Notes under the pieces: generated by a model | The model's database searches: none | What the model saw: only the letters and a program-made list of their open reading frames with translations | Told to the model about the DNA's origin: nothing | Part shown: piece after piece, positions 43,586-59,900 of the stretch | How the letters are laid out: each line of letters opens with the position of its first letter | Position numbering within the stretch: position 1 is the first letter of the stretch | From: Nitrospira sp. MA-1 | GTDB taxonomy: Bacteria; Nitrospirota; Nitrospiria; Nitrospirales; UBA8639 | Assembly (NCBI GenBank): GCA_032139905.1 | Contig: JAQJDB010000007.1 | Location: forward strand, 1,674,001 to 1,738,000 | Direction: 5' to 3' | DNA length: 64,000 nucleotides | Made by a program: the position numbers and the translations under genes

Positions 43586-45019
43586 TCACGCACCAGCCTG
43601 GCTCACAGGAGTCAGTATCATCCCTGAACGTGGTCCAAAATCGGCTAAGACCACCTTTCCCTTTTCACACTTGAACTTATTTCCCGTGAGGTGGTCCTCA
43701 AGCCATCGAGCGGTCTTCCCTACCCACTGGGCGAGATCAATCTGAATGGAGACCGGATGATCATCATTATGAATAAGAATAAACACAACGCTTCTTTTCG
43801 TCTTTCTCAGAAATACACAGCACTGTTGATCTTGGAATTCCTGGATTACCTTCCAATCCCCCTGTCGTAACGTTGGAAGAGATTTCCGGATTGCGACAAG
43901 TCGCTTGGTAAAATCCCGCAACTCGTCATTCCATTTGCTCTGATTCCATTCCATGCCCCTACGATTGTCCGGGTCCTTTTCTCCCTCCATCCCGATTTCA
44001 TCCCCATAATACACTGCCGGTATCCCTGGGAAGACAAACTGAAACAGCAGGGCTAACTTCAGCCGTTCAATATTTCCTTGAGCTACGGTATAAAGGCGTT
44101 CAGTGTCATGGGACCCTAACAGGTTCACCATCGCTGAGGTCTTTTTCCATGGATACATCCGAAGCAGTTTGCTCACGCGGGACACAAACTTCCTGGTTGA
44201 AATGGAACCTTGAATAAAATAGTCCAACACGATCTGACGGAATACGTAGTTCGTTCCTCCGTCAAATTGTCCATCCCGAATCCAGGAGCGACCGGGACCC
44301 CAGATTTCCGCCAGCATATACGCGGAGGGGTTAATCGTTTTGACTTCATGCCAGAGCGCTTTCCAAAATCGATGTCCCCGGACATCAGCCACCGCATCCA
44401 ATCGCCATCCATCAATACCCTGATTCGTCCAATATGCTGCCACCTCAAGAAAGTACCGTCGTGTGGCAGGATTGGCTAAATTGAGAATAGGCATGAGGGG
44501 CCGCTCTTGCCAGCCCCGATAATTAAATGGTCCAAACGCATTGACCGGAAATCGTGTGATGTAAAACCAGGATGCGAAGGGGGATGCCTGACCACGCTCC
44601 ATCACGTCATAAAAGGGAAAGAAGCCCCGGCCGCAATGATTGAATACACCATCCAACAATACGCGAATGTCATTGGCGTGAGCCTTGGACAACAATCCCT
44701 GAAAGTCTGCTAATGTACCAAGACGAGGATCAATCCTAAAGTAATCGTAAGTATTGTATCGATGATTGGCCGAGGCAAAAAAAATGGGCGCCAGATAAAT
44801 AAGATTCACACCAAGGTCCAAGAGATAATCGAGGCGTTCAGTGATTCCCCGGAGAGTACCCCCCATAAACCCGTGGGCTGTGGGCTTGGATCTCCAGGGT
44901 ACGATACCAGGTCCGGACTTAGTCTCGTGGCTATTTCGCGCAAACCGGTCCGGAAAAATCTGATAGAGGATCGCGTCACGAGTCCAGGAAATGTCCGAAG
45001 CGGGTTGATGATTTCTCAT
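43586..45019 (-). CDS. GH13 alpha-amylase-family glycosidase
   Basis: A 477-aa (beta/alpha)8 enzyme with conserved regions: DGVFNHCGRGFF, GWRLDAVADV (nucleophile Asp), MLAEIWGPGRS (acid/base Glu) and LLGSHDTERL. NHCGRGFF and the N-terminal RDAILYQIFPDRFARN point to the neopullulanase/cyclomaltodextrinase-like subfamily acting on alpha-glucans or maltodextrins. No signal peptide, so intracellular, perhaps in storage-glucan breakdown. Substrate unproved. Confidence 0.9.
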   Translation of the reverse strand: MRNHQPASDISWTRDAILYQIFPDRFARNSHETKSGPGIVPWRSKPTAHGFMGGTLRGITERLDYLLDLGVNLIYLAPIFFASANHRYNTYDYFRIDPRLGTLADFQGLLSKAHANDIRVLLDGVFNHCGRGFFPFYDVMERGQASPFASWFYITRFPVNAFGPFNYRGWQERPLMPILNLANPATRRYFLEVAAYWTNQGIDGWRLDAVADVRGHRFWKALWHEVKTINPSAYMLAEIWGPGRSWIRDGQFDGGTNYVFRQIVLDYFIQGSISTRKFVSRVSKLLRMYPWKKTSAMVNLLGSHDTERLYTVAQGNIERLKLALLFQFVFPGIPAVYYGDEIGMEGEKDPDNRRGMEWNQSKWNDELRDFTKRLVAIRKSLPTLRQGDWKVIQEFQDQQCCVFLRKTKRSVVFILIHNDDHPVSIQIDLAQWVGKTARWLEDHLTGNKFKCEKGKVVLADFGPRSGMILTPVSQAGA

Positions 45020-45073: not shown

Positions 45074-45110
45074 GAAAAAAAAAACCCGGAGTCACAGGAA
45101 ACTCCGGGCT
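45074..45110 (-). terminator. Strong rho-independent terminator of the isoprenoid-linked cluster
   Basis: Read on the minus strand: GCCCGGAGTTTCCTGTGACT is completed by CCGGG and followed by about ten Ts. It lies 46 bp after the last cluster gene and before the amylase gene. Confidence 0.9.
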
Positions 45111-45155
45111 AAAGGCAGAAGAAGAAATTCGCTAAGAGTCTTCCAAAACTGACGT

Positions 45156-45701
45156 TCAACAACACGAGCCGACGCTGGGAGAACAACAGCAGGAGGATGC
45201 GCACCCTAAGTGCTGACAACAATCCGCACAATCGCAGCCACAGGTCATTTGGCACCCGTATCCGTGAGATCCATGAGAATAGTCGCCGGCACCGTGGGCA
45301 TGGCCCCACCCAGCATCTCCGTGATGGTAATCAGGGCCAGCTAGCCCTTGAAGGAATCGTAATCCGACACCCAACCCCGAGTTCAAAAGATCCATTCCCA
45401 ATTTCAAGGTTTCCCCTACCCGATCAGCAATTTCCCCACTTGTCTCGCTGACCGTTTGTCCCAAGGCCGGATTCAAATGAGGCATCTGGGGAACCTGAGG
45501 CATGAAACCAGTCATAGGGGGGAAAGGCCATCCCATAGGCATTTGAGGCATTCCTGTCGCACCCGTGCCGAACTGAGGGCCGCCGTGTTCTGCGGCCGGA
45601 GCATGTTCAATTCGTTTTTTATATTCCTGAAATTCCACTTTGGCCTTGTTGGCTGCGCCGACATTTTTTCCTTTTGAAGAACTTTTTGGTGTTGCCGCCA
45701 T
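45156..45701 (-). CDS. Cys-rich protein of the cluster (amphipathic helix, Cys tail)
   Basis: 181 aa from ATG 45701 (AGGAGC upstream). A basic N-terminus and a Pro/Met/Gly-rich segment (PMGWPFPPMTGFMPQ) precede an amphipathic helix, LKLGMDLLNSGLGVGLRFL. After a His/Gly-rich linker, the tail has 12 Cys in the last 32 residues (CDCADCCQH, SCCCSP). No signal peptide. I do not recognise the family; a metal- or disulfide-linked assembly role is inferred. It is the last gene of the operon. Confidence 0.75.
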   Translation of the reverse strand: MAATPKSSSKGKNVGAANKAKVEFQEYKKRIEHAPAAEHGGPQFGTGATGMPQMPMGWPFPPMTGFMPQVPQMPHLNPALGQTVSETSGEIADRVGETLKLGMDLLNSGLGVGLRFLQGLAGPDYHHGDAGWGHAHGAGDYSHGSHGYGCQMTCGCDCADCCQHLGCASSCCCSPSVGSCC

Positions 45702-45724
45702 TGTTATGCTCCTGGTTAAACCGA

Positions 45725-46363
45725 TTAACAACTAAAGACTTCACACCATCGAACCCTGGCGGTCATGTTGACGACCAAGACCGTCAGATGAGCGCCTGGT
45801 TTGGTTGTGATAATGCCTTCCTTAATGACATAGCCATCCTGAGGCTCAGCCTGTTTCACCCATCCCAGAGTTGTTTTTTCGCTGTCCTGTACGGCGACCA
45901 TGACCAGGGCTGGGGCAGTTGATGCGGCATTCGTCGGAGTATATTCGATGGATAGATGCACGCAACATCCGCCCCCGATAAAAGCTTTTCCTATTCCCGC
46001 TTTTCCTCGCACATCCACCTCGCCGACAATTGGAGCCACGGCAGCCTTCGTCTCTGCATTCTTGCCGACTGTATCGTCGACTGACAGTTCAACCGGAGCT
46101 GCAAACATGGCCATTGCCCGGACCCGCTGGAGGACCATGGAATGGGAATCCGTCTTTCCATCCACATTAGTGTCTGCTTCTACAAGCAATTCCTTGGCTT
46201 CCTTCCGACATTCGCGATGCCCGCAACAGCATTTAGCCCTGGGATGGCAACAACCAGGACAAAATCCAGCGCCCCCATGCTGAAAAAGCGGTCCGGACAT
46301 GTGACCAGGTCCATGGTGCGCATGAGTGGGAATTCCAGAATACATCGGTTGAGTGTAATTCAT
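45725..46363 (-). CDS. Cluster protein with RWCE-type C-terminus, paralogue 1
   Basis: 212 aa; AAGGAAGG precedes the ATG. The N-terminus is His/Cys-rich (FCPGCCHPRAKCCCGHREC, seven Cys in 18 residues). A middle region follows, then a beta-rich domain of about 90 residues starting at AFIGGGCCVHLSIEY and ending in ARVRWCEVFSC. This last domain is plainly homologous to that of the next gene upstream (IGGTTKASLTLEY ... ARLRWCETICC). No known family recognised. A metal- or thiol-based role is inferred. Confidence 0.72.
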   Translation of the reverse strand: MNYTQPMYSGIPTHAHHGPGHMSGPLFQHGGAGFCPGCCHPRAKCCCGHRECRKEAKELLVEADTNVDGKTDSHSMVLQRVRAMAMFAAPVELSVDDTVGKNAETKAAVAPIVGEVDVRGKAGIGKAFIGGGCCVHLSIEYTPTNAASTAPALVMVAVQDSEKTTLGWVKQAEPQDGYVIKEGIITTKPGAHLTVLVVNMTARVRWCEVFSC

Positions 46364-46452
46364 TGGCGTGACCTTCCTTAATCTTGCCTCAAATTAAACA
46401 GCCATTCACAAAAAAATAAGCCGACGATTGAGTCATCCTCAATCGATCAACA

Positions 46453-46929
46453 TCAACAGCAAATTGTTTCGCACCAGCGCAATCGGGCCATCGCTTCTTT
46501 TACTTCCAATGTCACTTTGGCACCTGGCTCAATGGATAACAATTGAGATTTCACATGATAGCCGTCCGTCATGGAGGTTTCCTGCCAGGTTGAGATACTT
46601 CCATCGATTTCAACCGTGACCTTGACCAAGGGGGAAGCCGCCCCCCCATCCGGCACGTATTCCAGGGTCAATGAGGCCTTGGTCGTTCCTCCGATCAACA
46701 CTTCCTTCATGCCGGTTGCGCTATCCACACTGACTTCTTGAGGAAGAGGCATGGAATGCGTGGCCTGCCCGCCCCATCCGTATCCGGCATAACCGACTGA
46801 GGGGTAATACGGCATTGGCATCAGGACCGGGTACCCCATTGGAGCCATGCTGCGATAACCAGTCGAATGACAATGCGGTGACGAATGGTGGGACGTCGGG
46901 ACACAGCAATGCGGTGAATGGTGATGCAT
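46453..46929 (-). CDS. Cluster protein with RWCE-type C-terminus, paralogue 2
   Basis: 158 aa. N-terminus rich in His and Cys (MHHHSPHCCVPTSHHSSPHC), then a Gly/Tyr/Pro-rich stretch (YYPSVGYAGYGWGG) and a C-terminal beta domain with DGYHVKSQLLSIEPGAKVTL ending RLRWCETICC. Tandem paralogue of 45725-46363. Its ATG overlaps the stop of the 64-aa gene (TAATG), with AAGGAGA upstream, so translation is coupled. Confidence 0.72.
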   Translation of the reverse strand: MHHHSPHCCVPTSHHSSPHCHSTGYRSMAPMGYPVLMPMPYYPSVGYAGYGWGGQATHSMPLPQEVSVDSATGMKEVLIGGTTKASLTLEYVPDGGAASPLVKVTVEIDGSISTWQETSMTDGYHVKSQLLSIEPGAKVTLEVKEAMARLRWCETICC

Positions 46930-47123
46930 TAGGAATCTCCTTCGTTAGAGTCCGATGCTTTTGTCAAATCCTGGGTAATCTTCAACACATCTTCCACAAC
47001 CTGGAAACCCGTATTGACCACGGTATTGATCATGTCGGCCAATTTTTGAGGAATGTGATTCTCCAGAATTTGCGTGGAAGTCTGATTAATCAGTTTGTTA
47101 ACGGATCCTATAACGGTGGCCAT
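46929..47123 (-). CDS. Short amphipathic helical protein of the cluster
   Basis: 64 aa with AAAGG before the ATG. Predicted to be almost entirely helical, with an amphipathic pattern (VNKLINQTSTQILENHIPQKL, MINTVVNTGFQVVEDVLKI). It looks like a phasin-like or membrane-surface-binding peptide, but that is inference from pattern only. Coupled by TAATG to the next gene. Confidence 0.68.
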   Translation of the reverse strand: MATVIGSVNKLINQTSTQILENHIPQKLADMINTVVNTGFQVVEDVLKITQDLTKASDSNEGDS

Positions 47124-47166
47124 GATGTGTGCCTTTCTCCGGATGGGAGGGATTCCCTGCCGGTAA

Positions 47167-48627
47167 TCAAATGGGGCATTTAGTCAATGCGGTTCCCGTC
47201 GGCGTCAATGATCCTTCGGCATGGCCCCTGGCCAATCGAAGAACTTTGGTCATCACCTCGAGGCTCCAGTTTAAACTTTGCCAGGGATTCATCAGCATAC
47301 GGCTTGACGCTTTCGCACTACTGGTCAATGCGTCGGTGGCTAAACTCAAAGGCCCGGTCACCACTCCTTTTTCGTCTAATTGTAACATAGCCAACCAGGC
47401 CGCCGGATTGCGGGGCATGGCATGAAACAACGCTTGCGGGACAAGACAAATATTCTGAGAAAGAACCCCACTGAACACTCCGCTACAGAATTCTTGAAAT
47501 TGCCGGTCATGGGTGGTCATGCGAGCAATGTTGGCAAGAACAAATAAGCAGAATTCTTTCAAATCGGGATTTTTGGCCACCGATAAAAATAATTCCCCCG
47601 TTCGCCAGTCCAAATCAAATTGTTGTTCCCATTGCATTTGGTATTGTTGAAGAACGCGGACGGAACAATCTCCTTGTAACACGGCCTGATGCGCAGTTTC
47701 GGCCGCTAAATACGCCCCTTCCATCGCTTTATGAATGCCTCCGCCATTGAGTGGATCGGCTTGATTCGCGGCATCACCCACCAGCATCACCCGATCGGCC
47801 ACAATGGCCTTGGGTTTAAAAAATGAGACGGCCCCACCTGAAACAGCTCCGCAACGTGAGGCATGACGCAAGAGGTGACCCAAATCATGGTCAAGAAAAT
47901 CCTGGAACACCTGCTTCAGATTCGGGATCATGGGAAACGGCTTATCAAACGCGTACCCCAACCCGATATTCGCAAAGCCATCATCATCCACAAACACCCA
48001 CGCATACCCTGGAAAAAACCGCTCATCGAAATACACCTTTATTTGGGCGCCTTCGGCATCCACATTTTGGTAATAGGCACGAAGAGAAAGGGCCGTCGCT
48101 CCATTTTTTAAGACGTTCCCGATAGAGCGTGACACGACGGAGCTCACGCCGTCTGCCCCGATAACAATTTTCCCCTGTACTTCCGTGCGTTGACCTTTAT
48201 GATCCAGAACAACACGGGCATGATCGGGTTTCTGGTGAATCTCCCGAACAAGGGAATGCGCTTGAAATTTGGCTCCGGAGTCCACGGCATGTTGAAGAAG
48301 GATATGATCAAAACGGCGGCGATCCAACAACACGCAAAAATCCGGATATTGAGTGGAATTCGGAAATCCCCCGGTCAGCAGTAATTCGCCGTTAATAAAG
48401 AGGTCACACGTCTTAATACAGGATTTGGTGTGCGTCAGCACTTCGTCGATACAGCCCAACTGGTCAAGCCAGTATAATGCTTGAGGGGTCAACCCATCCC
48501 CACAGACCTTATCCCTGGGAAAATCGGTTCGATCAAGGATTAAGGTTGACAGCCCCTTCCGTGCCGTAAACGCGGCAGTACTGCTCCCTCCCGGTCCGGC
48601 GCCAACCACAATCACATCGTACGTCAT
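47167..48627 (-). CDS. Geranylgeranyl-reductase-family flavoprotein
   Basis: 486 aa from ATG 48627 (MTYDVIVVGAGPGGSSTAAF), chosen because the FAD-binding GxGxxG then starts at residue 8. GKIVIGADGVSSVVSR and the FAD/dimer motif GDAANQADPLNGGGIHKAMEG are typical of the geranylgeranyl reductase family within the p-hydroxybenzoate hydroxylase superfamily. Relatives reduce isoprenoid chains (chlorophyll phytyl, archaeal lipids) or act on other ring substrates. Next to an isoprenoid-synthase-fold gene in the same operon, an isoprenoid substrate is likely but unproved. The C-terminal about 100 residues are helical and less typical. Confidence 0.88.
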   Translation of the reverse strand: MTYDVIVVGAGPGGSSTAAFTARKGLSTLILDRTDFPRDKVCGDGLTPQALYWLDQLGCIDEVLTHTKSCIKTCDLFINGELLLTGGFPNSTQYPDFCVLLDRRRFDHILLQHAVDSGAKFQAHSLVREIHQKPDHARVVLDHKGQRTEVQGKIVIGADGVSSVVSRSIGNVLKNGATALSLRAYYQNVDAEGAQIKVYFDERFFPGYAWVFVDDDGFANIGLGYAFDKPFPMIPNLKQVFQDFLDHDLGHLLRHASRCGAVSGGAVSFFKPKAIVADRVMLVGDAANQADPLNGGGIHKAMEGAYLAAETAHQAVLQGDCSVRVLQQYQMQWEQQFDLDWRTGELFLSVAKNPDLKEFCLFVLANIARMTTHDRQFQEFCSGVFSGVLSQNICLVPQALFHAMPRNPAAWLAMLQLDEKGVVTGPLSLATDALTSSAKASSRMLMNPWQSLNWSLEVMTKVLRLARGHAEGSLTPTGTALTKCPI

Positions 48628-48686
48628 AGGTTTTCCCAGAAAATATCCATATGGACAGAACAACTCTCACTCAAGAGCTTTTCCCT

Positions 48687-49415
48687 TTACGTTGCCGACG
48701 TCACCAATAATTTCACCGGAATTTCAATGGCCTGTTCGGAAACCACAAGGATACGTCCATGATAAATGTCCGGCGGAAGCCCAGCGGGAATGACACCTTT
48801 CAACACAAATTTTTCAAAATCCATCGGATTAATCGTTTTCGTTCCAGGGTTGACCGTGAAGCCTTTGCAGGGAAATACCTGACCTTGAGTCGATCCGATA
48901 AACCCGTCGACTTTCAACTTGACGTTCTTGGCTGAATCCATTGAATCATTATTTATAGAAAATGACACCTGCACGGATTGCCCTGGTGTCAGCGGCAACC
49001 GATTGGCGATGTAATAGGCAGGGTCCTGTGGTTCGATACCTTCTGATTGTTCCGAGGAAGGCATTGGAGCAGCCGGATCGCGTGGGCTGGGGGTCGGAGG
49101 AGCGGATTCCTGAGGTGAAGCCGTGGCCGTTGCCATGACCCCTGAAAATTTCTCCATCACGGAATCTTGCATTATCGTTCCAAAACGATTAATCAGAGTC
49201 AATCCCAAACTTAAACCCGCTTCAGCCAGATCCAATCCTTTGGCAAACGTCGTGCCGATTTGATCACCATGCCCGAACACCGAATCCTCAGAGTTGGTGC
49301 GTTGATCCGTATGAGCAGAGGCTTGGGCTTTCGACGTTTTTTGAGTTGGAGACCTGCGGGTTTGCGGGGTCTTTTTACTGTTCTTACCGGCCGTGGCTTT
49401 ACTTCCGGACTTCAT
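48687..49415 (-). CDS. Cluster protein with amphipathic helix and beta domain
   Basis: 242 aa from ATG 49415, eight bases after GGAG. The frame continues far upstream but overlaps the 92-aa gene there, which has its own good start. N-terminus basic and Ser/Thr/Lys-rich (about 45 residues). An amphipathic helix, FAKGLDLAEAGLSLGLTLI, is like that of the Cys-rich protein. A Pro/Ser linker follows, then a C-terminal Ig-like beta domain (VSFSINNDSMDSAKNVKLKV ... IPVKLLV). Family not recognised. Confidence 0.75.
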   Translation of the reverse strand: MKSGSKATAGKNSKKTPQTRRSPTQKTSKAQASAHTDQRTNSEDSVFGHGDQIGTTFAKGLDLAEAGLSLGLTLINRFGTIMQDSVMEKFSGVMATATASPQESAPPTPSPRDPAAPMPSSEQSEGIEPQDPAYYIANRLPLTPGQSVQVSFSINNDSMDSAKNVKLKVDGFIGSTQGQVFPCKGFTVNPGTKTINPMDFEKFVLKGVIPAGLPPDIYHGRILVVSEQAIEIPVKLLVTSAT

Positions 49416-49443
49416 GCTCATGACTCCAAAGACATTGTGCGGA

Positions 49444-49722
49444 TTAACAACATGAATGACACGTACAGGGTGAAGGTTGGCATTGCACACAGTAAAGGTG
49501 CTGAACAACCGGTCCACATCCCTGACGCATGGTACATGTGCATCCGTGGGAACAAGGTGGATCCTGCCAGATAACCCCGTGCATGAAGTGCCGGAAAAAA
49601 TGGGCACCAGCGCCGACCAGATGTAAGGCAAGGCCAAGAGCCTGACCAGTGGTTTGTCCCAATGTGATAGCCCCATCGGGTTTGTATGTTGAGTATGAGG
49701 AATGCGAATGCGAACAGGACAT
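49444..49722 (-). CDS. Cys/His-rich 92-aa protein of the cluster
   Basis: ATG 49722 with GGGGAG upstream; begins MSCSHSHSSYS. The middle is hydrophobic and helical (GQALGLALHLVGAGAHFF), similar to the helix in the other cluster proteins, and the second half has ten Cys (HGCTCTMRQGC, CVQCQPSPCTCHSCC). Total 11 Cys in 92 residues. No known family. The 3-bp spacing to the repeat-protein gene supports co-translation. Confidence 0.72.
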   Translation of the reverse strand: MSCSHSHSSYSTYKPDGAITLGQTTGQALGLALHLVGAGAHFFRHFMHGVIWQDPPCSHGCTCTMRQGCGPVVQHLYCVQCQPSPCTCHSCC

Positions 49723-49725
49723 GAG

Positions 49726-50493
49726 TTAATTCTCCCCGCTGCTGACAGCACTATCCATGAAATCCTTCTGAGATCGGGGTTTGATCATCGGAAAAGTATG
49801 AGAAGGCACATTTCCCACTTTCAACCCACCCGAAGGGGCTTGTCTCCCTCCTCCGAATTTACCTCCCGGCTTGAGGCCATCTTTACCTTTTATTGGTCGT
49901 TCCGTGAATGTCCCGTGCATTGGCTGATGAGAGGGAGGGATGGGCTGACAAGGTGATCCCGTGGCCACGACCCGTGAACCTTTAGTCATCGATCGAGATG
50001 GAATAGCCGGATTGCCGGCAGTCGCTACCTGAGGAAAACTTTGCGCGGGAGTACGCGATTGCTCACGCCTGACCCTATCTCGTGGAGAAACCATGGTCCG
50101 CCCGTCCAGGTTGAGGCGGAGGAGTTCAATCCCTAACACCCGCGCGCGTAACGTATAGCTGGAAGGCAGACAAAAATCCTGATGAAGTCCGATCGACACA
50201 GGGGGCAAGCGCCGGATATTCATATCAACAGCAGGGAGCTGCCGGAGTGACAAATTGACGGTTGGCAGATTGGTCACATTGAACTGTTCAACACGTATCG
50301 GATCCAGATTGCGAATTTCGTCGATTCGAAGAGATTCAATAGTCAGGGGATCAATATGGTTCAGTTCCTTAATGTGAACAGCGGCCGGGGCAATATTCCG
50401 AACTTCGCTGATCACTAGCGGATCAACATTGCTCAGTTCACTGATCCGCAATTTGTCGAGATTTTTTGCTTCTTTAATTTTTATATCGCCCAT
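49726..50493 (-). CDS. Short-repeat (solenoid-like) protein of the cluster
   Basis: 255 aa; AAGG upstream of ATG 50493. Residues 1 to about 110 consist of short repeats of about 10-16 residues with a pattern like NxDPLxIxExRN (ELSNVDPLVISEVRN, LNHIDPLTIESLRIDEIRN, LDPIRVEQFN, then LPxVxLxLRQ types). This suggests a beta-solenoid or beta-arch stack. A Pro/Gly/Arg-rich, disordered C-terminal half with a few aromatics follows. Not recognised; probably structural. Confidence 0.72.
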   Translation of the reverse strand: MGDIKIKEAKNLDKLRISELSNVDPLVISEVRNIAPAAVHIKELNHIDPLTIESLRIDEIRNLDPIRVEQFNVTNLPTVNLSLRQLPAVDMNIRRLPPVSIGLHQDFCLPSSYTLRARVLGIELLRLNLDGRTMVSPRDRVRREQSRTPAQSFPQVATAGNPAIPSRSMTKGSRVVATGSPCQPIPPSHQPMHGTFTERPIKGKDGLKPGGKFGGGRQAPSGGLKVGNVPSHTFPMIKPRSQKDFMDSAVSSGEN

Positions 50494-50517
50494 ATGAATG
50501 CCCTTCCTTGGCTGATG

Positions 50518-51231
50518 CTACACCAGTCCTGGCCAGCTATAGTTTAGGTGAATCGCCTTGGCCTCATCGATGATGGCCGGTTGGGTTTGTAATCGAGCCG
50601 AAATTGTCACAACTTTGGAAGAGCCCGATCCGTTGAGTTGATAGAGAAACCAGGGAGCAGTCCCCGCCCCGCCCTGCACCACTGAGTCCACAAGCCATTG
50701 GACAGTCGCCCCTGAACTGTGCCGAATGGTCGCCCGAAATAATTGTTGAGTGTTGCTCTGATCAATGTAGGCGTTGTCATGTCCTTGCGGATAATAGAGA
50801 TACGCCTGCTTGGGGAAAACTTCAAGTGTTGGTTGAGGAAGCGGCTCGGGTCCATTTCCCATCAAAGTGACAAAAGCATAGGCTTTCCGAAAAGGGCTTT
50901 CCGCCGCAGTGGCGATGATAATGTCAGTTGTCCCATGAGCAAGGCTGCCTTTCGGAGGAGCGACATATAAGCCGGTCGGATCAATCGAACCAGACCCGGG
51001 ATTTCCTGCAGGATCCTGAACGGCCCAATTCACCTTACTGCTCATCCCGTTATACACCGAAGCTTGAAATCGGACCTGGGTATTCACAGGATCGCCATAT
51101 CGTTCATCACGAAAATACACTTCAGCGTTGGCCGGCCAGACCTCTACTTCAATTTGATGCTGACAGACGATCTGATGGTAGACCTGGTAGGTCGGATGGG
51201 AATGACGACATGGTGCAGTGTGAACCGGCAC
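50518..51231 (-). CDS. Ig-like/BIG-type beta protein of the cluster
   Basis: 237 aa, GTG start at 51231 with AAAGG upstream. A His/Cys N-terminus (MPVHTAPCRHSHP) is followed by two beta-sandwich modules of about 95 residues each, both with an F.A....G....V.W.V motif (FQASVYNGMSSKVNWAVQD and FRATIRHSSGATVQWLVD), as in bacterial Ig-like domains. Such domains are usually extracellular, but no signal peptide is present here. Function unknown. Confidence 0.72.
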   Translation of the reverse strand: MPVHTAPCRHSHPTYQVYHQIVCQHQIEVEVWPANAEVYFRDERYGDPVNTQVRFQASVYNGMSSKVNWAVQDPAGNPGSGSIDPTGLYVAPPKGSLAHGTTDIIIATAAESPFRKAYAFVTLMGNGPEPLPQPTLEVFPKQAYLYYPQGHDNAYIDQSNTQQLFRATIRHSSGATVQWLVDSVVQGGAGTAPWFLYQLNGSGSSKVVTISARLQTQPAIIDEAKAIHLNYSWPGLV

Positions 51232-51267
51232 GGCTAACCTTTCTCTATCATTTGCTCACGAGGACAT

Positions 51268-51696
51268 CTACATTGTGTCGACGTGTTCCTCAAAGTCATC
51301 GTCCGGGAGATCAACGGAACAATTGGCAATCTTCCCGAAGAGTTTGCCATTGAAGCTTAGCTTGGATTTACATCCAACCTTCCCCTCCAGTTGCGTCGTG
51401 ATTCCTTTTGTGCCTAGGACCCCGGCTAATTGCACATTGGCCCCTTCAACCGCGACGGTAAATGGAGAAAGCTTTATACCAAAACTGCCAATCGAAGCCA
51501 CCGTATGGATTCCACCGGCCCGCCGGAGAAACGGAATCGAAAGATTGATCGGGATCTCGCTGACCTGTACCGAAATTGAACTCACCTGCGCGACAAAAGA
51601 TCCTTTGACCTTTGTGGCAAAGGCGATTGGTTCGGTTTTAGCCTGGACAGAAAAATCCGGGCAACTCTCCATACCCAGTTGGCCTTTGAAATTCAC
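51268..51696 (-). CDS. 142-aa beta-rich cluster protein
   Basis: GTG start at 51696 with AGGAGGA upstream; the GTGA overlaps the stop of the 68-aa gene. Alternating hydrophobic pattern throughout (FVAQVSSISVQVSEIPINLSI, GVLGTKGITTQLEGKV), an acidic tail and three cysteines. Looks like a beta-sandwich or beta-roll structural protein. The antisense frame is open but is a shadow. Not recognised. Confidence 0.68.
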   Translation of the reverse strand: MNFKGQLGMESCPDFSVQAKTEPIAFATKVKGSFVAQVSSISVQVSEIPINLSIPFLRRAGGIHTVASIGSFGIKLSPFTVAVEGANVQLAGVLGTKGITTQLEGKVGCKSKLSFNGKLFGKIANCSVDLPDDDFEEHVDTM

Positions 51697-51899
51697 GTAG
51701 ACTCCTCCTGTGCTGTCTGCTGAGTCGTCATCCCATCCGGATAGACCCGCTCGGCCAGATCACTACACATTGCATCAATCCGTTCATTCAAATGTTCAAA
51801 CCCCTTCAAGGATTGACAAATTTCTTCACAGTTTTCCCCTTCAATCTCAAACGAGACAAAGGGACCAAGTTTAATTCGAAGAACCATATTGGCCGCCAT
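51693..51899 (-). CDS. 68-aa small cluster protein
   Basis: AAAGGTGAT before the ATG. Begins with a beta segment (MVLRIKLGPFVSFEIEGENC) and continues as a helix (EEICQSLKGFEHLNERIDAMCSDLAERV) with cysteines, ending in a polar tail. Coupled by a 4-bp overlap to the 142-aa gene. Function unknown; possible small partner or chaperone for it. Confidence 0.68.
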   Translation of the reverse strand: MAANMVLRIKLGPFVSFEIEGENCEEICQSLKGFEHLNERIDAMCSDLAERVYPDGMTTQQTAQEEST

Positions 51900-52000
51900 T
51901 CTATCACCTTTAGTAAAAAATGAAACCGGGGTATATAAATAAGGGCGTTCCCCTTAATACATTGCTTCCCCTTAATTTGACCTGGCCATACCGCCCTTAA

Positions 52001-52708
52001 TTACTTCGATTTCCTTGAATCCTGGCGACGCACCGGACGCTTGCCGTTTCCATTCCTGGGTTTCATCGTTCCGGTCTCATTGGCCTTCTTTTTCGCCATA
52101 CCATGACCATTCGTCTGGACGTGCCCATTACCAGGCTTGTCGTTCACCTGACTCAGGTTTCTATCTGCCTCTCGCAAGAATTTCACAATCTGATCCATGG
52201 AATGTAACATGACTCCAAGCGTGTCTTTTTGTTGCCGATCAAGATTTTTGTATAAATCTTCAAGCTTTCGTTCAAGTTCCTGCCCGTCACTGGAAGTGCG
52301 GTATTCTTTGCCACGTTCCCGTAGAACCGTTCCGAACTGATCCAGGATGGAGATCACACCAAATAAAATATCCAACGTTACGTCCTGTGCTTCCTGGCCA
52401 CGAGGATATGGGTGCGGACGGCAATGGGAACAAGCCAGAACCTGTTCACCTAACCCCATACTCCATCTGGCGAAAAGAGCCGATCGGGAATCGTCAGCAA
52501 TATTCGAACATCCCCGACGATGGAGTTTCCCATAAACAGGATCGAATTGATACGGGGCCATGGCCGCTTCCGCTTGGCCATCAATTCGCAACAGGGGGCG
52601 CGCATCGCTGACCTTTCCTTGAGATCGTAGCTCCTGAAGGGCAATCGCAAACACATCACCCCAATACACTTCTGTGCTTCCCGATGCATCCTCAGGAAAA
52701 CGTCCCAT
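52001..52708 (-). CDS. 235-aa cluster protein with Cys/His motif
   Basis: Start ATG 52708 (weak Shine-Dalgarno). A conserved-looking centre, YGKLHRRGCSNIADDSRSALF, is followed by LACSHCRPHPYPRG with a CxxC/H cluster that could bind metal. Then a helical region, VTLDILFGVISILDQFGTVL, and a coiled-coil segment (LERKLEDLYKNLDRQQKD). The tail is Lys/Arg-rich and disordered. Not recognised. It is the second gene of the operon after the isoprenoid-synthase-like gene. Confidence 0.7.
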   Translation of the reverse strand: MGRFPEDASGSTEVYWGDVFAIALQELRSQGKVSDARPLLRIDGQAEAAMAPYQFDPVYGKLHRRGCSNIADDSRSALFARWSMGLGEQVLACSHCRPHPYPRGQEAQDVTLDILFGVISILDQFGTVLRERGKEYRTSSDGQELERKLEDLYKNLDRQQKDTLGVMLHSMDQIVKFLREADRNLSQVNDKPGNGHVQTNGHGMAKKKANETGTMKPRNGNGKRPVRRQDSRKSK

Positions 52709-52824
52709 AACTCTATGTGCGCCTGACCACCGGGCTTCCTCTTCCTTAAACGTTTGCCTCTGTGAAAATGGAACAAACCGGACACACCATTTCCTAAACG
52801 ATCCTGATCCTTCTTCCTGGGGGC

Positions 52825-53736
52825 TTAATCATAGACTGCCCAGGCCAACTCTCGATGTATCCTTTGCAAACGATGTTTCTTGAGACGGGTCGCAAAATAT
52901 TTTGTCAAAAAGGCAATCAGCAAATCCCGCCCCGAACCTTCTGGTAGCCCCTGACGCAAACGGGCAATATGGCCTTGAAAGATCCGACGAAGAGTGCGTT
53001 CGGGGTCGGCAACCTGATTGAGATAGGTCACCCGATGATAATGCAAGTCTGAATAGCAATCCCCGTGATCGTCAATATGCATAATCAAGGAGCCTGCGAG
53101 ATAGATCATACTTAAATAATGCAGAGGAACCGCTGGGACTAAAAATCCTGTTAGAACTAAAATAGCATGGCCGCTTCGGTTCCTGGCACTTTCCCGTAAA
53201 ACCCGCAATTGTTCTCGGCGGGGACGTGAGCGAATGATCTCAGGATCAGAGCGGAAGGTCACATCCCGTTTTTGCGCTTGAAATAGCAGCAGGATGGCTT
53301 GCCGAAGTAAAGGATCCAAGACATCCCGTTCAGCAAACAAACGAGCTATAATCACATAAAACAGTTTTTCTCGATCCGTTTGAATCTCAAACCAACCCTT
53401 GGTCAAAAGGTCATCCATCCGATCAATATAGGAATGAGCAACATCCAAGCCAAAGTCATCAATAAAGCTATCCGCAAGGAAACAACAACCCCCGAACAAA
53501 CTGCCAATCATTTGCCGACGCGCATCATAGGGAAATCCCGCAATTTCCGCGCAGGCATGTCCCACAACGGTCATCTTGGCACTCAGTTCCATCATCTTCC
53601 GGTATTCATCCTGGCGTTGTTCAAAAAGATCGGGATAATACTCCAGCACTAACGGCTTCAGAAAGACCACTACCTGTTTCCGATAAAAACTGAACAATTG
53701 ATCAAGAGGCGTATGGAGGGATTGGGACGCGTACAT
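52825..53736 (-). CDS. Class I isoprenoid-synthase-fold protein
   Basis: 303 aa, all-helical. Two Asp-rich motifs are present at the expected places: DDFGLD (residues 93-98) in LADSFIDDFGLD, and DDHGD (222-226) in LIMHIDDHGDCYSD. They are about 129 residues apart, as in polyprenyl and terpene synthases that bind Mg2+ and diphosphate. The rest is divergent, so prenyltransferase, terpene cyclase or a regulatory relative cannot be told apart. First gene of the cluster, 35 bp after a good promoter. Confidence 0.75.
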   Translation of the reverse strand: MYASQSLHTPLDQLFSFYRKQVVVFLKPLVLEYYPDLFEQRQDEYRKMMELSAKMTVVGHACAEIAGFPYDARRQMIGSLFGGCCFLADSFIDDFGLDVAHSYIDRMDDLLTKGWFEIQTDREKLFYVIIARLFAERDVLDPLLRQAILLLFQAQKRDVTFRSDPEIIRSRPRREQLRVLRESARNRSGHAILVLTGFLVPAVPLHYLSMIYLAGSLIMHIDDHGDCYSDLHYHRVTYLNQVADPERTLRRIFQGHIARLRQGLPEGSGRDLLIAFLTKYFATRLKKHRLQRIHRELAWAVYD

Positions 53737-54199
53737 GAAAAAAACATCTCGTTAGAACGAAAGGGTTGCTATTATAAAGCGTTGAAGCGAAACTTTAAAT
53801 ATTTCCCAATGAATCTTGAGAAAAAAGATTAAATTTAACCCAAAGCTATATAATGCAACGGTTATGCCTTCAGACAGACATGCAAATGTGAATAAGTGTG
53901 AGCCGGCGAAGATTCGTGTCTCACCCAAAATTTCCACCAAATGAAAGGGTTTTATCAGAATTCTGGCAAACACGAACTCTACCGGAAGAAAAGACTCACG
54001 GGATCCGTGAGGGAATGTTGTAGGCATTCAACTTCACTGCACTGATGTAAAAAGCCTCAACATCATACTTTGAAATCCCTTAGAAGCCGAGATACTTTAC
54101 GACACAAAAACAATTGGTGGGTTGCAGGTTGTCCAATACAAAACAAGATTGGATCAGACTTCGAAGTTGACAGAAAAGTTATTTTCTCCTACCCAAAAC
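53737..54199. other. 463-bp region without convincing gene
   Basis: Holds the cluster promoter (53771-53799). The rest is AT-rich. A 91-codon minus-strand frame (53752-54027) overlaps the promoter and has no Shine-Dalgarno sequence, so I do not call it. No repeat or clear terminator seen. Confidence 0.5.
53771..53799 (-). promoter_or_regulatory. Sigma-70-like promoter of the isoprenoid-linked cluster
   Basis: On the minus strand TTTAAA, a 17-bp spacer and a perfect TATAAT, ending 34 bp before the ATG at 53736. Four of six and six of six matches to consensus. Confidence 0.6.
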
Positions 54200-55351
54200 T
54201 CAATCCGGTTTGGCCACTGGATTTTTTTCGGCGTCTGTAGAGCCATGCAATTGAGCCCTGGTGTCTAGTTCGTGGGCTTTTCGCCCGCCCCTCGCCGTCC
54301 GGCATTCGCCTAAATTCCCATGTATCATCACGCTGGCCATTTGAACACAGCGTTCTACCAGGGCAGTTGCGCCCTCCCTGAGTGATTGGGACTTCTGCAC
54401 ATATCGCATATTATTTTGCATGTCTTCCGCACTCCATCCTCGGGAATGGGCAATATAGGGAAACTGCGGGAACTGCACACCGATTTCGGCGAAAAACCCC
54501 AGCAGTTGTCCCGCCACAGCCTGAATATTATCCTGCCCACCCGTAATGATAAACCCGCCCACTTTATTATGAAGCAGATGTGTATCTGAAATCGTTTCTT
54601 GATTCTGTATGCAGTTCATCCGCTCAACCATCTTGAAATAAAGGCTGCTGGCCGCCCCCCACCGAATGGGAGTGGCCAGCACCATGACATCAGCCCAATG
54701 CACCAGACCCTCGTAGACCTGGTCCATCTCATCTTGTGGATCCATCTGCGTAATCGAACAGGGCCAGGTACAGGCCCGTGATGATTTGGAATAAAAACCC
54801 TCGCAAGGGCGAAAAGACAAATCCCGAAGACGCAACAAGCGGGTTTCACAATCTAGATTCTCCGAGGCATGCTTCAGTCCGACTTCAAGCAAATCTTCCG
54901 AGGTACTATAGCGAGGATGATCAGGCGTCATAACCGTCGTGGAAAGCCCGAGAACCCGAATCGGACCTTTTTCCCTGTGGGGAGTTCGAGCAAGCGGATG
55001 GGGTTCATGTGCTTTCCGAGTTCGTTTCGAAATCGCCGTGGACCGAATCAAGACTCGCCCCTCCGCTACTTTCACCTCATAGGCCGGCACCGCGTCTTCT
55101 TCATATCCCGGTTCCCCTTTGCCCGTTCGATAATGAAACTTCCAATAATGCCAGGGGCAGACCACGTACTCCCCGTCCAAGGTTCCTTCACCCAACGGCC
55201 CACCTACATGGTTGCACGCGCCATTGATCGCTCCGAACTCCCCATTGCGGTAGGTTAACGCCACTGGGGTTCGTCCGATCAGCACCTGCTGCACCGGCTG
55301 ATGCTTCAAATCTTCGACACCACCCACATCGATCCAGGTTGAATTCGGCAT
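54200..55351 (-). CDS. Rieske-flavodoxin fusion oxidoreductase
   Basis: 383 aa combining two redox domains. Residues 1 to about 105 form a Rieske [2Fe-2S] ferredoxin with the ligand pairs CNH (46-48) and CPWH (65-68) and the sequence CNHVGGPLGEGTLDGEYVVC. A linker with basic residues (SKRTRKAHEPHP) follows. Residues about 130-340 resemble an NADPH-dependent FMN reductase/flavodoxin (GPIRVLGLSTTV, HWADVMVLATPIRWGAASSLYFKM), with a Cys-containing loop (FRPCEGFYSKSSRACTWPC) that is reminiscent of iron-sulfur flavoproteins. Both domains in one chain are unusual. Role and partner unknown; electron transfer from NAD(P)H via FMN to the Rieske centre is inferred. Confidence 0.88.
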   Translation of the reverse strand: MPNSTWIDVGGVEDLKHQPVQQVLIGRTPVALTYRNGEFGAINGACNHVGGPLGEGTLDGEYVVCPWHYWKFHYRTGKGEPGYEEDAVPAYEVKVAEGRVLIRSTAISKRTRKAHEPHPLARTPHREKGPIRVLGLSTTVMTPDHPRYSTSEDLLEVGLKHASENLDCETRLLRLRDLSFRPCEGFYSKSSRACTWPCSITQMDPQDEMDQVYEGLVHWADVMVLATPIRWGAASSLYFKMVERMNCIQNQETISDTHLLHNKVGGFIITGGQDNIQAVAGQLLGFFAEIGVQFPQFPYIAHSRGWSAEDMQNNMRYVQKSQSLREGATALVERCVQMASVMIHGNLGECRTARGGRKAHELDTRAQLHGSTDAEKNPVAKPD

Positions 55352-55432: not shown

Positions 55433-55807
55433 CTATTGCGGAGGCAAATCTCTGCCTTTCGAATCCTCGACGATTAATATACCGCCCATAATCGGATGGA
55501 TTTGGCAGTGGTATGAATAGCGGCCAGGGGGTAGCCCAGGAAGTGTATATGTTTTCCCCGGTGCAACCTTCCCGGAATCAAACAGACACGGTTTCCCTGT
55601 TCCACAATCGTCATGTTGAACGGTATGAGGAGACGCGGTCGCATTAATCCACTCTATGGGAACACCGGCCCAGACCACAGCTTCATGTGGATAATAATAG
55701 GGAGGAAAATGTTCCATCCGGATCGGTTCATTCACAAATTCGGTTCCTGATGTGACAGTGCCTAGCAAGACGATATAGAGAAAAATAACACACTGGAGTG
55801 TTTTCAG
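55433..55807 (-). CDS. Periplasmic cupredoxin, likely CTG start
   Basis: Type I copper protein with ligands His61 (ASPHTVQHDD), Cys101, His104 and Met107 (YHCQIHPIMGG). The start is placed at CTG 55807, seven bases after AAGGAG, giving a normal signal peptide (KTLQCVIFLYIVLLGTVTSG). A TTG at 55897 would add 30 unlike residues with no good ribosome site. The 124-aa form is the usual plastocyanin/amicyanin size. Adjacent to the Rieske-flavodoxin gene, so both may serve electron transfer. Confidence 0.8.
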   Translation of the reverse strand: MKTLQCVIFLYIVLLGTVTSGTEFVNEPIRMEHFPPYYYPHEAVVWAGVPIEWINATASPHTVQHDDCGTGKPCLFDSGKVAPGKTYTLPGLPPGRYSYHCQIHPIMGGILIVEDSKGRDLPPQ

Positions 55808-56989
55808 AGGATATCTCCTTTCCGATTGTATGGTTTTAGGGATTGTACTGTGCCTACTGGTCTCAACCAAGTTCTTAAATAAAGGAAACAGTGGCAAGGA
55901 AGTTCCACGACCTCTCCTTTCTCAAATCCTGAGCTATTAGCCAATTGTCACCTTCTTCATTATAACTGACGCAGCTCCGGGATTTGGATGCCTCAACACA
56001 GAAAGACAGGGAATGTCCCGGGGGAGTATATGGGGATGGGGAAAATGATGCTGAATCAGTCCCTCGTCATACAATGCTAATCCCTTAAGATCAAGCTCCG
56101 GTTCGTCAAACTCATCATGACATAAACCAAAATCGGCAGATCTCTCATTCCCTCTGCCATGCCATCATCCATCATTAGAAGAATGCTTCTTTTCTCCAAA
56201 ACCTCTGCTCACCAGTCCTCAAAGTACACGATTCATCTCACTGAAATTTTTCTGAACGAAATTTGGGTATTTCTTTCAATGAGTTGATTCCACTCTTTAG
56301 ACAAATGACAAACAGAGAAACTGAAAAACTATCGCAATGCGACATTCTTGGCCGATGAAGTCAGGCTTAGCAAGATCATAGGACTTCCAGAAAGGAATTT
56401 TCTTTGCCCCTGTGAGAAAACCGCTGCAGTCGTACCAGTGGAAGTTCTGCGGGTTCGTCCGATGTGCAATCTCAATATTACTCATGCTCGTGAACTCGCT
56501 TCGCGATAACTCAAAATTTCACGCCCTGTCACCGCTCTGTTTTTAATAGCAGGTCTTCCCATACGGCATCTTTGGCGCTTGTCTTGGTCAACTCCAAGAT
56601 TTTCTTCCTTCCCTGTTTTCTATTGAGCGAGATCCAGGTGAATGGGGAGGGAGTATTTCACTTCGGTTGTCTCCCCCCTCACTGGAAACAGTTTTTAAAA
56701 CCTTAGAAAAACACCAAATAAAGAGGGAAAAGCTTACTTTCCCGGGTACACTCCCCACCTCTGAAAGAGAATGCCGCATCTATTACCTTTACATATCCTG
56801 GCTTATTCCCTCAAAAGGGTATCAGGCATAATCAGGAACCTTTGCTTGTAACCAAACCTCCGGGCAGTAAACTCTGATCCCGTGAGGCACGGATCGGATC
56901 GTTCCATTTATAAGCCCACTTGATTCCTAAGCCAAACGGAATAGAATAGTATCACCTTCGACCGGAAAGAAAAGTCAGGACTGAACCGA
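55808..56989. other. About 1.2 kb intergenic region
   Basis: No convincing gene. Two minus-strand frames (56297-56485, 62 codons; 56588-56779, 63 codons) lack Shine-Dalgarno sequences and have no recognised domain. A stem-loop is present near 56875-56894 (GATC-CGTG/CACG-GATC with a one-base bulge). A promoter candidate for the adhesin lies near the end. Confidence 0.5.
56920..56947 (+). promoter_or_regulatory. Candidate promoter of the two-partner-secretion adhesin
   Basis: TTGATT (four of six) and TAGAAT (five of six) with a 16-bp spacer, 42 bp before the GTG start at 56990. Confidence 0.4.
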
Positions 56990-59900
56990 GTGCTTCGCTT
57001 TCCTTTCAAAATCTTCCACAGACAATTGCGAAGGATACTCGTTGCCTTTTTATCCGTTGGGACCTTCGTCATTGTGGATGGAAGTCCGGCTCAAGCTCAA
57101 ACACCACCCATTACTTCATCCGGACTCAATACTCAGGTCAGTGCGCCGAGGCATCTTCCCGGCGGAGCGGTTCAACATGATATTACCGGTGGAACAAGAC
57201 CGGGTGGCGGAAGTAATCTCTTCCATAGCTTTGGGGATTTTGGTGTTCCCACGGACAATATTGCCAACTTCCTGAACGATTCGGGACTTCCGACTTCAAA
57301 CATCCTTAGTCGCGTCACCGGCGGCAATCCATCCAATATTTTTGGAACCATTCAAACCAAGGGTTTCGGAAATGCAAATCTCTTTTTGATGAATCCCGCG
57401 GGAATAGTCTTCGGCCCCAATGCTGCCTTGAATGTGGGCGGGGCTACCCATTTTACGACCGCTGATTATGTGCGGCTTGAAGATGGGGCCCAGTTCACCG
57501 CCCTGCCCGGTGCTCAGGATTCTCTTCTCAGCATTGCTCCGATTGTGGCCTTTGGATTTCTCGGTCCGAATCCAGCCGGCATATCGGTCGAAGGTAGCAC
57601 GTTGTCGATATCCGAAGGCCAACCGCTTTCGCTCATAGGCGGCGACATCACCATTGGCCGAAGCAATCTCACTGCCCCCGGAGGGCAGATTGCCCTGGCT
57701 AGTGTCGGCTCGCCGGGAGAAATCCTGGCGAACACTTTTGACCAGACATCCAATATTCATGGGCATACCATGGGGTCGGGTGGCACTATCAGGATCTCAG
57801 ACCAGTCTGTCATAGATGCCGGCGGAGAGCATGGTGGCAAGATGTTGATTCGGGGTGGTCGATTGGTCCTCGACCATGAATCCCAAATCCGTGCCAATAC
57901 GCTGGGAGCGCAAGACGGTGGCCATGTCGATATTGCCGTAAGCGAGAATGTCCTGATAGCGGGTACAGGTGCGCAAACGGACACCCCGAGCGGAATATTT
58001 GCCAAAACAGAAGGCGGCGGAAAGGGGGGAACGATTACGATCAGTGCAAGCTCTGTGAAGTTGACTGATGGCGGAAACCTGTCAGTGAGCACCCGAGGGG
58101 AAGGGGATGCGGGAACCATTATGGTCAATGCCCCTGATGGCAAGGTCATCCTATCAGGGAGTGATAATCGCTTGACTGATTTTTCGCCTGAGGAAGAGGC
58201 CGTGAGCGGCTTGTTTGCCAACACAGTGGGAACAGGTCGGGCGGGTACCATCACGGTGCAGACCGGGGATCTCACTATAAGTGAAGGGGCTCGCATTTCG
58301 GCCGGCACCTTTGGGCGAGGCAACGGCGATGCAGGAAAACTCTTTATTGCGGCTACAGGAGACGTTCTTCTTTCAGGCACACAAGTCAATGGCAGCACCT
58401 CATCTGGTCTCTTTGCGGGTGCAAGTGAATTGACTCTTCCCGGGAATGGACTTCTGGGTTCCGGCGGAACGATTAACATGACCGGTCAAACTGTCCGGAT
58501 CCTGGATGGGGCGAAAATACATGTCGCCTCAATAGGACAGGAGCAACCGGACATGAACAGGCTCGATAATGCTCCATCGGCCGGGACCGTGAACATTAAG
58601 GCGGCCATGCTGGACCTTACTGGAGCGGAATTGGACGGAAAGGTCATCGACATTATTCCAAGTGAGATAACAGCCAGCGCGACTGGCCCGGCCTCGGCGG
58701 GGCACATTCTGTTGGAAGCAGACAATATCACGATTAAAGATGGAGGGGGCGTCACGGCGGATACGGAATCCATAACCAGAATAGAAAAAACCGGGGATAT
58801 CCAGATACAGGCAAAGGAAAATCTTGTCATCTCGGGAACCGCGGATCGAACGGAGTTTCCACCAAATCTTCTTCCACAAAACACACTTAACCCCCGAACC
58901 GTCGTTCAGAGTGCAGTTCGTGCTCAGACAAAGGGCGTGAATCGCGGAGGCGAAATTCACATCAGTGCAGAAAATCTATTTGTTGACGGCGGAGGCCTCA
59001 TCTCCAATGCGGCTCTTAATGGAGCGGGAGCTGGTGGAAACATACACCTTGACGTCGTAGATACGATTCGATTGTCAGGTGCGTACGAAAAAGTGGACAA
59101 GAACAGGACAATTTTTAGAAGTGAGATTTCTAGTGGGACAGAGGGGCCCGGTCATGGTGGTGACATTTCTATCACGGCCAAAAATGTTGAGATGCTGGAT
59201 GGGGCATGGATTTCATCAAGAACCAGAGGCCGGGGAAGTGGTCATGCCGGCCGGGTGAGTATCACGGCAGAAGAAACCGTTTCTCTCTCCGGATTCATGA
59301 GCGTATATGATCCAGAAATCAATAACACCAGCAAAACCCAGGAAATATCAAGTCGAATTATTGCACGCGCAGAAGAACACGACAATCGGCTAGCGGATTT
59401 ACCTCTTGGTAATGCTGGCGATATCTCGATTACAGCGAAAAATGTCGTGATGAAAGATGGGGCGGAAATCATAGCCCCGTCATCCTCCGGAAGAGTGATA
59501 CCCATAACGGATGCCATAGAGGAAATCGTTGCCAACATGCCAGAAGAACAGCGTCCACGTGCAGGGAATATCACTGTTAAAGCTGATACAATAATCCTAT
59601 CCGGCGCGCGAACGGTTGGAGGATCAGGAAAATTCGGTTGGGCTCCAACCACCATCCGCGCTGGGGTTATCGGACCGGCAGGAACCGGGAATGTTTCACT
59701 GACTGCCAATACTATTGTCATTCGTGATGGGGCCGATATCAGCGCTGAAACTCAATCTAGCACTCAGGGAGTTCAGCGGGGCAACGTGACGATTACCGCT
59801 CATGACAGCTTAACTCTCTCAGGATATCTTTTGCGTACGGAATTTCCAGAAAACCCTATAGGATCAGACCCCTTTCCTGAAGCCAATGGGCGGACGATCA

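Follow-up and report, generated by a model that had tools for sequence, protein, structure and literature searches.

Why would thirteen genes be kept in one order across at least four phyla and yet be absent from nearly all relatives of their carriers? This question is raised by a gene cassette of Nitrospira sp. MA-1 (assembly GCA_032139905.1), which lies in a stretch of 64,000 nucleotides (the window, positions 1,674,001 to 1,738,000 of contig JAQJDB010000007.1) of a 4.76 Mb genome. Because the order is kept across phyla and missing from nearly all relatives, the 13 genes must work together. Two of them, g1 and g9, encode predicted isoprenoid enzymes, and the other eleven encode co-inherited, export-signal-free and mostly non-enzymatic-looking proteins, a combination which suggests an isoprenoid-holding assembly. 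Our leading, though still tentative, reading is that the cassette encodes an assembly of proteins, in the cytoplasm or on a membrane surface, which would make and hold an isoprenoid.

Conservation of the cassette across phyla

A search with g1 of 84,980 species genomes returned 13 loci, against which all genes of the window were then compared by tblastn. The complete g1-g13 order was found in Rhodospirillales URHD0017 (L007), a second Rhodospirillales metagenome-assembled genome (MAG; L009), Caulobacter sp. BK020 (L010; no tblastn match at the g10 position), Paraburkholderia panacisoli (L011) and a Nitrospinota MAG (L014). A Calditrichota genome carries the cassette over two contigs, with g1-g6 and a candidate open reading frame (ORF) for g7 on L013 and g8-g13 on L026, and an alphaproteobacterial MAG (L015) holds g1-g9, reaching near its contig end. 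One further locus, assigned to 'Dehalococcoidia' (L008), was left out of the counts as a probable binning error because its matches nearly equal those of L009 from the same study. The genes flanking the cassette vary among carriers. The original prediction, made from the sequence of the window, would have been refuted by a lack of co-occurrence of these genes elsewhere; they do co-occur, with a common order, in distant phyla, and the cassette is therefore a real system.

Inheritance was likewise shared. Pairwise between-lineage distances of eight cassette genes were correlated (r 0.81-0.98), and a joint cassette tree placed the Proteobacteria apart from Nitrospirota, Nitrospinota and Calditrichota, so the cassette evolves as one unit. 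Eleven cassette genes were comparable with one sister genome and gave ratios of non-synonymous to synonymous substitution (dN/dS) of 0.05-0.39. The genes are under purifying selection, and the small ORFs of 68, 92 and 64 residues therefore behave as genes.

In the window the cassette forms a run of 13 minus-strand genes from 53736 to 45156 with intergenic gaps of -4 to 116 bases; in L007, L011 and L014 the reading frames of g1 and g2 share 8 bases. The co-directional operon with short gaps or overlaps that had been described was thus confirmed, and comparison with other lineages corrected its count of twelve genes to 13. As to the signals proposed to bound it, the strong terminator stood, that at 45110-45083 being the strongest one in the region. 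The promoter did not fare as well: the site at 53799-53771 is the best match in the region, but it counts by position alone because the region holds 6 such sites against 9.7 expected from shuffled sequence, and thus no excess of them. Rfam detected no RNA element.

Two predicted isoprenoid enzymes

The AlphaFold2 (AF2) model of g1 (predicted local distance difference test, pLDDT, 90.3) matched only all-helical isoprenoid-synthase folds among the listed Protein Data Bank (PDB) matches. The best were pimarane synthase Sat1646 (Z 17.7), MoeN5 (17.5), epi-isozizaene synthase (17.4) and farnesyl diphosphate synthase (17.2); as these scores lie within one unit and are tied, chain elongation, cyclisation and prenyl transfer by g1 are indistinguishable. 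The likeness to class I isoprenoid synthases (trans-prenyl synthases, bacterial terpene synthases and MoeN5) covers ~240-276 residues at Z 16-18 and includes two acid motifs at matching positions, FIDDF (residues 91-95) and IDDHGD (221-226), both conserved in the alignment. D93-D94 are nearly invariant and are followed by an acidic residue at 97 or 98 wherever alignment rows cover that site, and Q155, D158, D222, D223, G225 and D226 are invariant. In contrast to these enzymes, with which g1 has 7-14% identity, g1 lacks a full DDxxD in its first motif, matches no PF00348 or terpene-synthase profile and sits amid eleven unmatched proteins. Sequence searches with g1 gave no match in Pfam up to E 10, and no credible match in NCBIfam or among PDB sequences. 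We are confident, on the basis of the model, that g1 has the class I isoprenoid-synthase fold foreseen in the original prediction along with both Asp motifs, and its conserved residues fit an active enzyme. When the host genome was searched with the PF00348 profile, two other genes were matched and g1 was not. The host thus holds two ordinary polyprenyl synthases outside the cassette, and g1 is therefore extra.

The second enzyme, g9, scored above the cut-off of TIGR02032, in agreement with its earlier description as a geranylgeranyl-reductase-family flavoprotein, and just short of that of the Pfam geranylgeranyl reductase (GGR) catalytic domain PF22578 (25.7 bits, cut-off 27). It shares conserved KVCGDGL and PGYxWxF segments with the superfamily, which includes archaeal digeranylgeranylglycerophospholipid reductase (3oz2) and MenJ, and differs in a C-terminal extension of ~140 residues past the matched core. 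Membership of the superfamily is shown by profile score, and g9 would by this kinship reduce prenyl double bonds. Cassette copies are 45-57% identical to g9, compared with ~24-30% for the best plasmid-borne relatives among the matches listed. Four carriers (L007, L009, L010 and L014) have two g9 genes. The second copies in L007 (15978-17432) and L010 (15886-17331) read PRDTVRSDGL and PRDTVRCDGL and lack the KVCG motif, a loss which suggests that these copies may have a changed or non-catalytic role.

Since g1 resembles terpene cyclases and prenyltransferases alike, an ordinary small-molecule terpenoid cluster has to be weighed, in which a diffusible terpenoid would be the product of g1 and g9, and their companions would act as metabolon scaffold, accessory proteins and resistance factors. 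The scattered distribution and repeated loss of the cassette are typical of biosynthetic clusters. However, no tailoring enzyme such as a P450 or methyltransferase was recognised in the cassette, nor any transporter or regulator, and eleven of the 13 proteins look non-enzymatic and are equally conserved in order, which is unusual for a terpene cluster. We consider this reading unlikely, though not far-fetched.

Eleven companion proteins

Neither Pfam nor, for the proteins scanned against it, NCBIfam gave a score above a curated cut-off for any of the remaining eleven, and the locus is therefore outside current annotation. Ten mostly unrecognised partners had been described; their lack of a family held, and their number rose to eleven. 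The match of g2 to DUF6233 was weak and below cut-off, and PDB sequence profile searches with g4, g5, g8 and g11/g12 found nothing credible. Across all 13 proteins there was no transmembrane-strength span (highest 19-residue hydropathy 1.74) and no clear signal peptide, as had been noted for the latter.

Several of the companions could nevertheless be followed between lineages (Table 1). In other genomes the profile of g5 matched large unrelated ORFs at their 'SGLYTxP' Ig-like repeat (E 5e-8), which agrees with the earlier designation of g5 as Ig-like. The domains with an RWCE tail proved paralogous, as proposed: g11 and g12 cross-matched by tblastn to E ~1e-13, and RWCE is kept in every lineage. 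Exactly two RWCE copies were present in 6 of the 9 carrier genomes searched; in the other three, which have none, the cassette contig ends early or only g1-g2 are kept. The g7 protein is mostly too divergent for tblastn, and a small ORF encoding a helix and a Cys/His-rich tail occupies its position in L007, L009, L010, L011, L013, L014 and L015.

Table 1 Features of the cassette and its proposed boundaries (positions in the window; aa, amino acids)
Feature	Position	Strand	Evidence and remarks
Promoter-like site, 5' of g1	53771..53799	-	TTTAAA-17-TATAAT, 10/12 matches; not above chance for region
g1, isoprenoid-synthase-fold enzyme (predicted), 303 aa	52825..53736	-	AF2 pLDDT 90.3; PDB fold matches, best Z 17.7; no Pfam/NCBIfam match
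g2	52001..52708	-	Zinc-knuckle-like HR-x2-C...C-x2-C; conserved helix 'DxLxGxxSIxxQFGxVLxERGxEYR'; basic or low-complexity tail (alignment)
g3, conserved small protein, 68 aa	51693..51899	-	46-65% identity in other phyla; no family
g4, 142 aa, conserved IPFLRR motif	51268..51696	-	GTG start overlaps g3; alignment
g5, Ig-like domain protein, 237 aa	50518..51231	-	Alignment; profile finds YTxP-type Ig-like repeats elsewhere
g6, 255 aa	49726..50493	-	N-terminal repeated 'DPL-x-V-E-x-L' segments; alignment; no family
g7, helix and Cys/His-rich tail, 92 aa	49444..49722	-	Equivalent ORF in other loci
g8, 244 aa	48687..49421	-	Conserved 'KGLDLAEA...LG' helix; C-terminal conserved domain (NRLPL...DFEKFVL); alignment
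g9, geranylgeranyl-reductase-family flavoprotein, 486 aa	47167..48627	-	TIGR02032 201 bits, cut-off 158.8; alignment
g10, amphipathic helical protein, 64 aa	46929..47123	-	Conserved in L007, L009, L011, L014, L026; hydrophobic moment 0.57
g11, His/Cys-rich N-terminus and RWCE domain, ends ...CC	46453..46929	-	Alignment; C-terminal Cys in 7/7 carriers
g12, Cys-rich N-terminus and RWCE domain	45725..46363	-	Alignment; ends RWCE[VI]FSC in 7/7 carriers
g13	45156..45701	-	Pro/Gly/Met-rich linker, amphipathic helix, Cys-rich C-terminal tail; alignment; C-terminal Cys in 7/7 carriers
Intrinsic terminator, 3' of g13	45083..45110	-	11 pairs, 6 G-C, then T run

The Cys-rich regions admit two further readings. 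With 9-18 Cys in g12/g13, His/Cys-rich N-termini in g11/g12 and zinc-knuckle-like residues in g2, the cassette could specify a metal-storage or redox assembly whose Cys/His-rich tails hold metal and whose isoprenoid is merely an anchor or electron carrier. The number and spacing of the tail Cys differ among lineages, however, and the cassette has no metal-uptake or cytochrome gene, and we regard this reading as improbable.

Alternatively, a saturated prenyl group made by g1 and g9 could be attached to the C-terminal Cys of g11, g12, g13 and some g7 proteins and anchor them to a membrane, by analogy with eukaryotic Rab proteins, which are prenylated at C-terminal CC or CxC. All seven carriers compared keep a C-terminal Cys in g11, g12 and g13, and MoeN5, among the closest folds to g1, is a prenyltransferase. 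Against protein lipidation, no cassette member matches the protein prenyltransferase family (alpha/beta subunit profiles), the g7 tails are not all Cys-terminated, and metal binding or disulfides explain the Cys-rich regions equally well. We judge it somewhat less probable again than metal storage.

Loss, apparent transfer and a possible isoprenoid-holding assembly

Within each group of carriers the cassette is rare. A single-sequence query detected g1 in 1 of 296 sampled Nitrospirota. Elsewhere g1 was detected in one of 300 sampled Burkholderiales, one of 77 Nitrospinota and one of 297 genomes from the phylum of the deltaproteobacterial locus L012, and a profile of g5 detected the cassette once among 385 genomes of a single alphaproteobacterial class and once among 40 Calditrichota; each match was the genome at the centre of its sample, and all these samples are subsets. 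In the family of the host, g1 occurred in 5 of 49 genomes, all within its own genus.

Two complete relatives, G251 and G616, have no cassette at the corresponding place. In G251 the amylase that adjoins the cassette downstream begins only at residue 188, and a stretch of ~54 bases links it with the cupredoxin gene; G616 retains no more than the first 149 residues of the Rieske-FMN (flavin mononucleotide) gene upstream, ~65 bases from a zwf match. These scars look like independent deletions and so like at least two losses in the genus; the region was therefore probably present in the ancestor of the genus, and the cassette is dispensable. A recent insertion at this site was rejected since both cassette-free relatives carry deletion scars. 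Base composition was considered as a sign of recent transfer and set aside, the GC content of the cassette differing from that of its flanks by no more than ~2 points in most carriers and exceeding it by 6 points in L014. The g1 proteins of Caulobacter and Rhodospirillales are 86% identical, which looks like transfer. No mobile carrier was found by the queries tried in plasmid (g1, g5), phage (g5) and IMG/VR (g1, g6) collections.

Sparse presence, deletion losses and apparent transfer would also be expected of a defence or competition island. PADLOC, however, matched 0 of 10 cassette proteins and PHROG gave no credible match to the ten scanned, no nuclease, protease, NTPase or membrane effector was recognised, and the plasmid and viral collections just named yielded nothing. 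Of the readings considered here, this one appears the least probable.

The flanking genes were also noted. The GH13 alpha-amylase (43586-45019) is truncated or absent in cassette-less members of the genus; a relative (41% identity) lies upstream and divergent in the Calditrichota locus L013 (5957-7561), none was seen beside other cassette copies, and the adjacency in both places may be coincidence. On the other side, 54200-55351 encodes a fusion of a Rieske [2Fe-2S] domain with an NADPH-dependent FMN reductase-like domain; this gene stands beside the cupredoxin gene (55433-55897) and keeps its place next to the cassette in L003, L005 and L006 of the genus. Further along, 56990-61144 encodes a 1384-residue protein with a two-partner secretion (TPS) domain, likely a secreted adhesin-type exoprotein.

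For the isoprenoid-holding assembly that we tentatively favour, the cassette would be self-contained and occasionally transferred. In this scheme g1 would condense or rearrange a prenyl diphosphate taken from the ordinary pathway of the host, and g9, as a flavin adenine dinucleotide-dependent reductase of the GGR family, would saturate double bonds of the g1 product. The amphipathic helices of g2, g7, g8, g10 and g13 may sit on the resulting hydrophobic surface, the Ig-like and other conserved domains of g4, g5, g6, g8, g11 and g12 may form a scaffold, and the Cys/His-rich termini of g7, g11, g12 and g13 may bind metal or cross-link the assembly. We infer these activities, the substrate, the physical assembly and the role of the Cys-rich tails from the composition of the cassette.

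Known assemblies offer partial parallels. Family 2 encapsulin loci (PMC8346489) are reportedly linked to terpene or polyprenyl enzymes. They share with the cassette, at the level of the idea, an isoprenoid enzyme tied to a self-assembling protein body, and differ in that the cassette has many different proteins instead of one shell and no shell protein recognised by sequence. No profile match to an HK97-fold shell protein was found among the 13 proteins, g1 alone having a reliable structure model, nor any to a bacterial microcompartment (BMC) domain. Polyhydroxyalkanoate (PHA) granule and lipid droplet coats (phasins) provide a functional analogy, in that several amphipathic helical proteins without export signals accompany lipid enzymes; the cassette differs in having no phasin or PHA-synthase profile match and in its Cys-rich tails and Ig-like domains.

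Several observations weigh against an isoprenoid-holding assembly. Neither a product nor a complex or particle has been observed. The Deltaproteobacterium MAG L012 (1056-2616) holds g1-g2 alone, with ordinary genes directly after and no RWCE domain in the genome. The unit is therefore divisible, or has decayed there, and L012 may be a cassette remnant or a simpler, minimal form. An AlphaFold model of g4, made in search of a lipid-binding fold, was unusable (pLDDT 31.8). A helix common to g8 and g13 is weakly supported (hhalign probability 40%), and g8 and g2 do not match.

The observation made in the original prediction is confirmed, and its interpretation is partly supported. Searches of the open-access literature found no description of a system of this composition, in line with its statement. 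A bolder form of the favoured reading, which we hold to be possible but doubtful, is a new bacterial inclusion or organelle-like body. The single transferable cassette of 13 genes would then encode a particle in the cytoplasm whose core is a saturated isoprenoid and whose Cys-rich coat consists of several proteins. Gene removal and imaging appear practicable in the carriers Caulobacter sp. BK020 and Paraburkholderia panacisoli DCY113, since both are named strains. Should the isoprenoid assembly prove real, it would represent a bacterial lipid body of a new class or a scaffolded terpenoid factory.

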